Shown here: positions 32,782-36,535 of the stretch, in pieces
Layout: each line of letters opens with the position of its first letter
Position numbering within the stretch: the stretch's first letter is position 1
Origin: an uncultured Pelagibacteraceae bacterium
Lineage (GTDB): Bacteria; Pseudomonadota; Alphaproteobacteria; Pelagibacterales; Pelagibacteraceae
NCBI GenBank assembly: GCA_902627735.1
Contig: CACOKI010000001.1
Span: forward strand, 62,001-126,000
Reading direction: 5' to 3'
Length of the DNA: 64,000 nt
Notes under the pieces: model-generated
Databases searched by the model: none
Told to the model about the DNA's origin: nothing
Seen by the model: only the letters and a program-made list of their open reading frames with translations
Translations under genes and position numbers: made by a program

Positions 32782-32809
32782 AATATAGTCTCAGCTAACT
32801 CATAGTCAA
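32782..32809 (-). promoter_or_regulatory. putative sigma70 promoter for rplU-rpmA (-35 TTGACT, 16-nt spacer, -10 TATATT)
   Basis: Reverse strand TTGACT (32804-32809), 16 nt, TATATT (32782-32787), ~25 nt upstream of the rplU ATG. Confidence 0.6.
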
Positions 32810-32819
32810 GTTATATAAA

Positions 32820-33539
32820 CTAAAAATTATCCTTTAAATCTCTTAATTTTGAAAAGGTTTTTAAATCTTTAGCCTTAAGAAATATATTGCACTCCAGCTC
32901 TTCAGCTAGAGTTGTTGGAAGTGTAGGAAGATTATTGCTAATTTTGTCTTTAATCTTAATTATCTTTTCTTGGAGTCTAATATTTTCTGAGTCATTATTT
33001 AAACAAAAAATTGAATTTTGAAGTGTATATTCGTGCCCACAATAAATTTCAGTATCTCTAGAAAGTTCTTTTATTTTTTTTAAAGAATTAAACATTTGTT
33101 CATATGTTCCTTCAAATAATCTTCCACAACCAAGAGAAAATAATGTATCACCAGTAAAAATTTTTTTTTCTTTATAAAAATGAAAAGCAATATGTCCAGT
33201 TGTATGACCTGGTATATGATAAATTTTCGCTTCAAAATTATCCTTCTTCCATATTTGATTATTTTCTACAAGGATATCAATTTCAGGAATTCGATCTTTA
33301 TCATCTTTAAAACCAACTACTTTTGAATTGTATTTTTTTTTTAATTTTTTATTTCCACCTACATGATCATAATGATGATGAGTATTTAAAATATATTTTA
33401 AGTTTAATTTATTTTTTTCAATTATTTTTATAACTGGCTCAGACTCACTTGGATCTATAACACATGCATTTTTTTTATTTTTATCAAATATTAAATATGA
33501 GTAATTGTCATTTAAACATGGGATTATTTTTACTTCCAT
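32820..33539 (-). CDS. gloB: hydroxyacylglutathione hydrolase (glyoxalase II)
   Basis: THHHYDHVGG, HIPGHTTGHIAFHF, FTGDTLFSLGCGRLFEG, CGHEYTLQN. Confidence 0.94.
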   Translation of the reverse strand: MEVKIIPCLNDNYSYLIFDKNKKNACVIDPSESEPVIKIIEKNKLNLKYILNTHHHYDHVGGNKKLKKKYNSKVVGFKDDKDRIPEIDILVENNQIWKKDNFEAKIYHIPGHTTGHIAFHFYKEKKIFTGDTLFSLGCGRLFEGTYEQMFNSLKKIKELSRDTEIYCGHEYTLQNSIFCLNNDSENIRLQEKIIKIKDKISNNLPTLPTTLAEELECNIFLKAKDLKTFSKLRDLKDNF

Positions 33540-33540
33540 T

Positions 33541-34137
33541 TTAACTTTCTATTAAAAAAATACCAAGATTTGAACTCAAATTTTTTATATTTAGGTTAGA
33601 ATTTGTAATAATGGATGGTTGATCATTTTTCAGAGCTATAGATTTTGATAGTTTGAAACTCATTGTTTTACTAAAATTAACAAAATCTTTTATTGTACAA
33701 AGGTGAATGTTTGCAGTGTTGTACCATTCATCTGGTAAAGTTTTTGTTACAGGCATTGTGCCTTTTAATAAAAGATGTAACCTCACTTTCCAATAACCAA
33801 AATTTGGTATTGTGACTATGGCTTGTTTACCAATCCTTAATAGTTCATTTATTACTTTTTCAGGTTTAAGGAAAGCCTGCAGAGTTTGACCTAAAATCAC
33901 GTAGTCAAATGACTTATCTGGAAATTGTTTTAAATCATCTTCAGCATTACCTTCAATAATTGTTAATCCTTTGGCAATACAATTTTGAACTTTAGTTTTT
34001 GAAATTTCTATTCCTCTAATATTTGCTTTTTTTTCTTTAATAAGAAATTCCATCAAAATGCCATCGCCACAACCAACATCAAGTACATGAGAATTTTTAT
34101 CAATTAAATTTGATATTATTTTAAATTCTGATTTCAT
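33541..34137 (-). CDS. metW: MetW-family methionine biosynthesis methyltransferase-like protein
   Basis: VLDVGCGDGILMEFL; IPNFGYWKVRLHLLLKGTMPVTKTLPDEWYNTANIHLCTIKDF; next to metX. Confidence 0.93.
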   Translation of the reverse strand: MKSEFKIISNLIDKNSHVLDVGCGDGILMEFLIKEKKANIRGIEISKTKVQNCIAKGLTIIEGNAEDDLKQFPDKSFDYVILGQTLQAFLKPEKVINELLRIGKQAIVTIPNFGYWKVRLHLLLKGTMPVTKTLPDEWYNTANIHLCTIKDFVNFSKTMSFKLSKSIALKNDQPSIITNSNLNIKNLSSNLGIFLIES

Positions 34138-34139
34138 AT

Positions 34140-35258
34140 TTATTCCTCTAAGTATGATTTATCTAAAAAATTTTTAAGTGCTTTTAAAAAATCAGGCACA
34201 TCTAATAAAAAGGAATCATGCCCTTTATCTGATTTAATTTCCACAAATCCCACATTTGCTCCAATAGAATTTAATGCAATAACTATATCTTTATTTTCTT
34301 GAGTTGGATAAAGCCAATCTGATGTAAATGATATAACAAAAAATTTTGCTTTAGTATTTTTGAATGCATTTGATAAATTACCATTATTTTGCTTTACCAA
34401 ATCAAAATAATCCATTGCTCTGGTGATGTATAAATAGCTATTAGCATCAAATCGATCTACAAACACAGATCCTTGGTATCTTAAATAACTTTCAATTTGA
34501 AAGTCAGCATCAAATCCAAATTTTAGATCATCTCTTTCTTGAAGTTTTCTTCCAAATTTTTCTTGAAGCCCTTTTTTTGATAGATAAGTAATATGAGCAG
34601 CCATTCTGGCAACTGCTAAACCTTTATCTGGAATAGTATTTTTAGACGAATATTCTCCATCTTGCCATTTGTGGTCAGCTGCTATTGCTTGTCTACCAAG
34701 TTCATTGAAAGCAATATTTTGCGCTGAATGACTAGAGGTACAAGCTATAGGTACTGCAGTTTTAGTTTTATCAGGATAATTACTAACAAATTGTAAAACT
34801 TGCATTCCACCCATTGATCCTCCAACAACTGAAAAAAGTTTTTTAATACCAAAATGATCCAATAAATTTTTTTGTGCATTTACCATATCATTAATAGTAA
34901 TTACCGGAAAATCGGTGCCGTATATTTTTTTAGTTTCAGGATTTTGATGACCAGGTCCAAAAGAACCCATACAACCACCGATAACATTTGCACAAATTAC
35001 AAAATATTTTTTTGTATCAATAGATTTACCGGGCCCAACTGCATAACTCCACCAACCATCTTTATTTGTTACAGGATTAACCCCAGTAACAAACTGATCC
35101 CCTGTTAAGGCATGAAAAACTAAAATTGCATTATCTTTTTCTTTATTTAATGAACCATAGGTTTCATATGCTAGAGGAAAATTATTGATAGTTTTACCAC
35201 AATCTAATTTGAGTGGTTTATCAATAGTTATTGTTTTTATATTTTCTTTAAAATTCAT
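34140..35258 (-). CDS. metX: homoserine O-acyltransferase MetX
   Basis: [31 protein letters not shown] nucleophile elbow, late GHDSFLLD. Confidence 0.95.
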
Positions 35259-35289
35259 AATTTAAGCAGATTTTTGAATTGTGAGAAAA

Positions 35290-35346
35290 AAAACTTATTT
35301 AGCGGTTTTTTTAAAGCGCTCGCAATTCAGGTAAATCAGCGCAGAA
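35290..35346 (-). ncRNA. SAM-II riboswitch (S-adenosylmethionine) in the metX leader
   Basis: Reverse strand TTTCTGCGCTGATTTACCTGAATTGCGAGCGCTTTAAAAAAACCGCTAAATAAGT matches the SAM-II layout: GCGCTGATTTA...ATTGC.AGCGC stem P1 plus GCTAAA pseudoknot partner. Lies directly upstream of metX. Confidence 0.9.
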
Positions 35347-35348
35347 AT

Positions 35349-35377
35349 TTTGTACAAGATGTTATTTGTTATGTCAA
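35349..35377 (-). promoter_or_regulatory. putative sigma70 promoter for the SAM-II/metX/metW/gloB transcript
   Basis: Reverse strand TTGACA (35372-35377), 17-nt spacer, TACAAA (35349-35354); the transcription start would fall at the 5' edge of the riboswitch. Confidence 0.65.
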
Positions 35378-35449
35378 TTTTAAAATTTTATTTACTAATA
35401 CTATATAAAAAATTGTTATTTTAATTATAAAGGCCTAAAAATTAAAAAT

Positions 35450-36535
35450 ATGACTGCTATAAAATTTAAAAAATTCAATATAGATACTTACAAGCCCGGA
35501 AGGTCTGTTATTAAGAATATGAAGAAAGTTATAAAACTTTCTGCAAACGAATCTGCTTTGGGAGTGAGTTTAAAGGTTCAGAAAATTATATCAAAAAAGA
35601 ATTTAAGTTTTTTTAGATATCCAGATCCAAAATCAAAAAAATTAAGAATGGAAATATCCAAAAAATTCAAATGTGATATGGAAAGGATTATTTGTGGCTC
35701 TGGATCTGACGAAGTAATTCAAATGCTTTGTCAATTATTTCTTAAACCAAAAGATGAAGTAATTGTTCCTCAGTTTAGTTTTTTAATGTATAGAATTTAT
35801 GCAAAAATAGTTGGTGCAAATGTAGTATTTGCCAAAGAGAAAAAATTTAAGGTATCAGTTACAGAAATAATTAAAAAAGTAACAAAAAAAACTAAGATAG
35901 TTTTTATTGCAAATCCAAATAACCCAACTGGAACTTTTCTAAATAAAAATGAACTAATTAAATTAAGAAAAAGATTAAGAAAAAATGTCTTGTTAGTGGT
36001 CGATGATGCTTACTTCGAGTACATGAAAAATTCAGGTTATGTATCTGGTCTAGATTTATTTAAGAATAAAGAAAATGTTTTTATATTAAGAACGTTTTCA
36101 AAAATTTATGGCTTATCATCTTTGAGGGTTGGATGGGGATATGGCACAAAAAAAATTATTGACGCCTTAAATACAATTAAGCCGCCATTTAATGTTAATG
36201 AAGTTGCCCAAAAAGCTGCTGTAGAATCTCTAAAAGATGTAAAATTTATATCCCGTTCAGTTAAACATAATATTTTTTATGCAAAAAAATTAAAATTTTT
36301 TCTACAAAAATATGGTATTACTTCAAATGATGTTTCTGCTAATTTTTTGCTCTTAAATTTTGCGAAATGTAAATTTAAAGCAAAGAATTTTAATGAGAAA
36401 TTAAAAAATAAAGGTATCATTTTAAGATCCACTGAAGAAGGTTATAAAATAAAAAACATGTTGCGATTATCAATTGGATCAGTAAATGATAATTTAAGAT
36501 TTATGAGTGCAGTAAAAAGTATATTTAATAAATGA
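35450..36535 (+). CDS. hisC: histidinol-phosphate aminotransferase
   Basis: PLP aminotransferase; KLSANESALG, NPNNPTGTF, VDDAYFEY, RTFSKIYGLSSLRVGWG. Confidence 0.9.
   Translation: MTAIKFKKFNIDTYKPGRSVIKNMKKVIKLSANESALGVSLKVQKIISKKNLSFFRYPDPKSKKLRMEISKKFKCDMERIICGSGSDEVIQMLCQLFLKPKDEVIVPQFSFLMYRIYAKIVGANVVFAKEKKFKVSVTEIIKKVTKKTKIVFIANPNNPTGTFLNKNELIKLRKRLRKNVLLVVDDAYFEYMKNSGYVSGLDLFKNKENVFILRTFSKIYGLSSLRVGWGYGTKKIIDALNTIKPPFNVNEVAQKAAVESLKDVKFISRSVKHNIFYAKKLKFFLQKYGITSNDVSANFLLLNFAKCKFKAKNFNEKLKNKGIILRSTEEGYKIKNMLRLSIGSVNDNLRFMSAVKSIFNK

Follow-up and report, generated by a model that had tools for sequence, protein, structure and literature searches.

The window analysed here, a 64,000-nt stretch of the genome of an uncultured Pelagibacteraceae bacterium, carries on its minus strand metX and metW, followed by gloB and preceded by a promoter and a SAM-II riboswitch aptamer.

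35372..35377, minus strand: −35 hexamer TTGACA, read from the sequence and kept in 114/114 distinct leaders of the genus
35349..35354, minus strand: −10 hexamer TACAAA, read from the sequence, 17 nt from the −35 hexamer
35294..35342, minus strand: SAM-II aptamer (sub-threshold match to Rfam RF00521, 30.3 bits, E 2.6e-5)
34140..35258, minus strand: metX, homoserine O-acyltransferase (NCBIfam PRK00175, 525.6 bits), without a Shine-Dalgarno (SD) sequence in front
33541..34137, minus strand: metW (TIGR02081, 230.4 bits), with its own SD-like AGAGGA
32820..33539, minus strand: gloB, hydroxyacylglutathione hydrolase (glyoxalase II; TIGR03413, 278.6 bits)

The metX ATG occupies 35258-35256 on the minus strand, and the divergent hisC starts at 35450. 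An earlier note on this DNA had described TTGACA-N17-TACAAA followed by an aptamer string before metX; this arrangement is exact on the minus strand and lies far above chance. The exact N17-TACAAA recurs in 79 of the 114 distinct metX leaders sampled from the window's genus, most others having TAAAAA or TAAAAG. A sigma-70 scan that demanded T at the last −10 position omitted this promoter. Since the −10 hexamer ends at 35349, transcription probably starts at ~35342-35344, on the first aptamer base or slightly upstream of it, which refines the earlier placement near 35343-35346.

NCBIfam matches bear out the gene identities given in the earlier note, and the intergenic gaps are 2 nt (metX/metW) and 1 nt (metW/gloB). 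The three genes are contiguous in 80/80 named loci of the genus, and the order is retained, with exceptions, in ten genomes drawn from other genera and from a sister family of the order (~0.8 kb between metW and gloB in two, metX away from metW in one). Gaps of 1–2 nt make co-transcription likely; with the gene order conserved as well, the shared control proposed earlier is plausible as shared transcription, and SAM-linked gloB expression would be possible. The gloB linkage itself is an inherited operon arrangement and does not in itself point to a special link. Between gloB and rplU, the minus strand has TTGACT-N16-TATATT (32782-32809), the best promoter-like site of the scanned region, from which the ribosomal genes downstream of gloB may be transcribed separately.

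The aptamer comprises the following elements.

35342-35293, minus strand: aptamer string GCGCTGATTTACCTGAATTGCGAGCGCTTTAAAAAAACCGCTAAATAAGT, read from the sequence 3' of the promoter
35342-35338 with 35320-35316, minus strand: P1, GCGCU/AGCGC, formable, with covariation across genera
35325-35322 with 35303-35299, minus strand: P2 pseudoknot, UUGC/GC-U-AA, always paired in 17 diverse aptamers
Parts of 35294..35342, minus strand: L1 GAUUU and A-rich L3, read from the sequence
35330-35329 with 35295-35294, minus strand: short P2a, CU/AG, pairing read by eye

The SAM-II identity claimed in the earlier note holds. In an Rfam scan of 35200-35460, RF00521 (SAM_alpha) was the best match and full length; its 30.3 bits (E 2.6e-5) fall short of the 36-bit gathering score. 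The long-loop SAM-II model came next (26.7 bits), and SAM-V (RF01826) was absent among matches at E up to 10. The metX aptamer is the best RF00521 match in the 1.03 Mb assembly (next, 16.5 bits), and at the gathering score zero Rfam families pass anywhere in the 64-kb window. Matches at E ≤ 0.01 occur in 106/147 Pelagibacteraceae genomes and in none of 14 control genomes; the gathering cut-off is reached in 0/147. Because even genome G094, which bears the exact 52-nt published SAM-II model RNA, falls below 36 (34.1 bits), this cut-off is too strict for Pelagibacteraceae and is a conservative curated value rather than a defining property of the class. Across the genera, 17 diverse aptamers show double changes at three P1 pairs (99.4% of cells paired) and an invariant, always formable P2. 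The binding-core letters GAUUU, UUGC, and GCUAA are all present in the window, invariant in the alignments, and the same as in the published model RNA, and the setting fits, with methionine genes metX-metW behind and a promoter just upstream. The class assignment is safe, and SAM binding is predicted. A SAM-II element before SAR11 metX is a known part, reported in 2009 in the main text of PMC2704228 for metX (SAR11_0217) of Ca. Pelagibacter ubique HTCC1062. What is new, and was missed by the earlier note, is the genus-specific expression platform that follows the aptamer at 35293-35266.

35286..35293, minus strand: U8 run, directly 3' of the pseudoknot strand
35275..35285, minus strand: anti-aptamer arm CUCACAAUUCA, 10/11 complementary to aptamer UGAAUUGCGAG (35329-35319)
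35266..35273, minus strand: post-arm segment AAAUCUGC, lengthening the hairpin through pairs with aptamer GAUUU (35337-35333) and GC (35340-35339)

Leaders of the genus share one layout: aptamer, a run of 5–9 U, the near-invariant arm CUCNCAAUUC(A), a variable spacer, and AUG. The arm is present in essentially all 114 distinct leaders, though the neighbouring spacer varies. It is at least 9/11 complementary to aptamer UGAAUUGCGAG in 107/114 leaders; shuffled spacers reach this level in 0.25% of cases, a contrast whose significance is overstated because the leaders are related and not independent. In a 28-sequence alignment, 98.6% of cells of the arm pairing are paired, compared with at most 53% when the arm is slid by 1–3 columns. 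The sole mismatch, opposite an invariant aptamer C, is filled by A, U, C, or G or is missing, and both of its flanks are constant. Four leaders with U5 and one with U6 carry CUCGC, the perfect partner of GCGAG, which suggests that hairpin strength is kept where the U-run is short.

Pairing potential continues beyond the arm. The post-arm spacer forms a mean duplex of −5.58 kcal/mol with aptamer GCGCUGAUUUA, versus −2.19 ± 0.36 kcal/mol for shuffled spacers (0/500) and with 4/1000 for shuffled targets. Complementarity to GCGCUGAUUUA is preserved over 22 non-redundant variable spacers, G-U forms included: [CU][AG]GC, which supplies Watson-Crick or G-U partners of GCUG, occurs in 13/22 (expected 5.6%). 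The nested minimum-energy fold of the window's leader is the anti-aptamer hairpin (−16.7 kcal/mol over 85 nt, z −2.6). As this hairpin draws on bases of P1, L1, and the 5' strand of P2, it excludes the pseudoknot, and we show that the leader has two mutually exclusive, conserved predicted folds, pseudoknot and anti-aptamer hairpin. RNAalifold on the genus alignment returned solely the nested P1-L1 fold with zero covariation because the aptamer is invariant within the genus; the hairpin likewise has no two-sided covariation there, its aptamer side being invariant. A wider search for two-sided covariation of the arm took in other genera and the sister family; none of the matches inspected there was an arm-type leader. 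A phage-database search gave a single irrelevant short match. One genome of the window's genus has a second SAM-II-like element, without terminator and without arm, before a bhmT-like gene (L105).

Most inspected SAM-II aptamers of other genera and the sister family have an intrinsic terminator behind them, such as GCCCAGUUUAGCUGGGC-U9 before metX. A script found terminators in 45 distinct leaders of other genera, and 41 of these 45 terminator segments carry a perfect complement of 6 nt or more to the pseudoknot 3' strand region (shuffled controls, 5.3%). By analogy, the relatives' layout would be a classical antiterminator/terminator switch in which SAM binding holds the 3' strand in the pseudoknot, leaving the terminator free to form. 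A covariance model built from the genus leader (R1) matches nearly all sampled genomes of the genus at E ~1e-15 to 1e-21. Beyond the genus it reaches 2e-9 at best, and the matches inspected there were aptamers with terminators and without the arm. Because the sister family and other genera both use terminators, the arm-type platform is apparently derived, having been exchanged under an unchanged aptamer, as judged from outgroups rather than from a formal tree. On balance we lean towards a genus-wide replacement of the ancestral SAM-II terminator platform by a downstream strand that captures the aptamer's 5' half, with neither terminator nor Shine-Dalgarno, a natural experiment in output change.

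SAM-II also occurs before other genes in the relatives. In genus g5, five loci have it immediately ahead of metW, together with a terminator-like hairpin rich in A/U, and metX is not adjacent to SAM-II-metW in the single g5 locus checked. Four loci of genera g12 and g9 place SAM-II and a terminator before metF-like genes, and one further locus (L096) has both before a gene start resembling metE (all named by eye).

We propose, with a probability of about 0.5, that the window holds a SAM-II aptamer at the very 5' end of a metX-metW-gloB transcript, acting as a SAM-OFF switch through a genus-specific platform with a post-initiation output. The OFF direction at high SAM is very likely, considering the role of metX and the precedent of the class. 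When SAM is scarce, the arm CUCNCAAUUC and the short, wobble-tolerant post-arm segment would capture the aptamer's 5' half, and expression would be on. When SAM is plentiful, the pseudoknot would be locked and the arm and U-run set free, and the freed segment would lower metX output after transcription has started. Translation, stability of the RNA, and termination at the U-run are all candidate outputs. The most likely route would be masking of the SD-less start codon (AUUCA with UGAAU) or exposure of the mRNA to decay. Start-codon masking pairs number 3.4 versus 1.1 expected, and the unpaired probability of the start-codon window is 0.53 with a free and 0.45 with an occupied aptamer (~0.51 occupied with shuffled arms). 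The case for masking is weak, since AUGAAU also starts metX in genera without the arm; this confounds the comparison, and the effect on accessibility is small. With only 5–11 nt between its end and AUG, the hairpin might itself hinder ribosomes.

The alternative that survives best is attenuation driven by the pseudoknot: the SAM-bound pseudoknot, abutting the U-run, would act as an intrinsic terminator stem, and the arm would form only after read-through, locking the aptamer open. We regard this as unlikely, though it deserves serious consideration. The 5–9 U of the genus begin right after the 3' pseudoknot strand, sister genera regulate by termination, and loss of the hairpin between two U-runs would give this layout. 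Four leaders, however, have just U5, P2a is weak, and a U5–U8 linker also follows the aptamer in several terminator-type leaders, where it would lie in the antiterminator loop. The arm, moreover, is downstream of the U-run and could have no effect on termination there.

That arm and partner are instead two halves of a repressor's DNA operator is very improbable. They do form an inverted repeat, as such an operator would, but the wobble-type changes after the arm are an RNA signature, and all six further CTCNCAATTC copies in the genome fall within open frames and have no partner close by. Having checked this reading against both observations, we disfavour it. A simple translational SAM-II, in which SAM binding hides a Shine-Dalgarno in the pseudoknot 3' strand, has been proposed for the Sargasso Sea metX RNA (PMC6061858, PMC9373788). 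Here the 3' strand GCUAAAUAAG lacks an SD and stops 35 nt short of AUG, and an SD-like motif within 20 nt of the metX start is found in 0/114 genus leaders; we give SD masking very little credence. Lack of an SD is common in this genome, 37/49 long ORFs of the window having a weak one or none.

Terminator/antiterminator control of the classical kind, as the 45 terminator-bearing leaders of other genera and their 41 antiterminator matches would lead one to expect, is contradicted by the sequence of the window's genus: a script search found a terminator hairpin in 0/114 leaders, the interval from aptamer to metX in the window is likewise predicted to have none, and we hold this reading to be barely credible. 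Equally hard to credit is a decayed aptamer without SAM response, which would suit a score below the Rfam cut-off but not a core invariant over 114 leaders, nor the fact that the published SAM-II model RNA, scored within a genome that bears it, also stays below that cut-off (34.1 bits).

SAR11 cells need reduced sulfur, which is scarce, and make heavy use of SAM riboswitches. If the arm of the platform proposed here is functional, neighbouring genera have coupled one SAM-II aptamer to two different output devices, and the evolution of expression platforms becomes directly testable with short, swappable leaders.

The survey also placed the SAM-II model RNA in its native context. A crystal structure of the Sargasso Sea metX SAM-II RNA was reportedly described by Gilbert in 2008, and we take the published 52-nt RNA to be the molecule that was crystallised. 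That 52-nt RNA is printed as the SAM-II wild type in PMC8494917. Its exact sequence occurs in two genomes of another Pelagibacteraceae genus (G094 and G527, at L256 and L263; L014 was also noted), where it is followed after 3 nt by a GCCCAGUUUAGCUGGGC-U9 terminator and then by the metX ATG. All 30 inspected near-identical copies (30/30) have the terminator. These copies also have an in-frame ATG directly behind GGGG; related leaders within that genus lack this ATG and retain the terminator. The model RNA has been described as translational (PMC6061858, PMC9373788). The terminator shared by the copies, together with the absence of GGGG-ATG from related terminator-bearing leaders, speaks for transcriptional control by the native switch. 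The comparison suggests that the SAM-II RNA studied most, and labelled translational in the literature, faces a terminator in its native gene, and re-examination is advisable.

Compared with known systems, the window's element resembles SAM-V in its pseudoknot and binding core. SAM-V, however, has the SD in the 3' strand, whereas the window has a lone SAM-II without SAM-V. Elsewhere in the same genome, a strong SAM-V (84 bits; contig C4, 72427-72492) precedes a metY-like gene, with AAGGAG immediately ahead of the gene's ATG. A 2016 paper called the pairing of SAM-II with SAM-V unique to Ca. P. ubique among sequenced organisms. At 14 loci from several genera, we observed SAM-II with a terminator and then a SAM-V-like sequence before methionine genes. 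The SAM-II elements of Sinorhizobium meliloti metA/metZ (PMC9373788) and Agrobacterium metA (PMC1273637) are, like that of the window, alphaproteobacterial, located at the start of methionine genes, and usually have a near-consensus promoter just upstream; terminators or SD masking are described for them, and the window has neither. The Sargasso Sea metX model RNA shares with the window the core GCGCUGAUUUA, AUUGC, AGCGC, and GCUAAA. It comes from another genus and has a terminator with U9 behind it, whereas the window has the anti-aptamer arm and no terminator. The HTCC1062 element is of the same class, gene, and clade, with an intergenic region of 191 nt in both and a GC content of 22.5% there and 22.0% here (PMC2704228). 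This comparison is one by description; the main text of that report gives the aptamer only, and we found no account there of the downstream arm. In a P. ubique single-cell genome (L174) the arm is present, as it is here.
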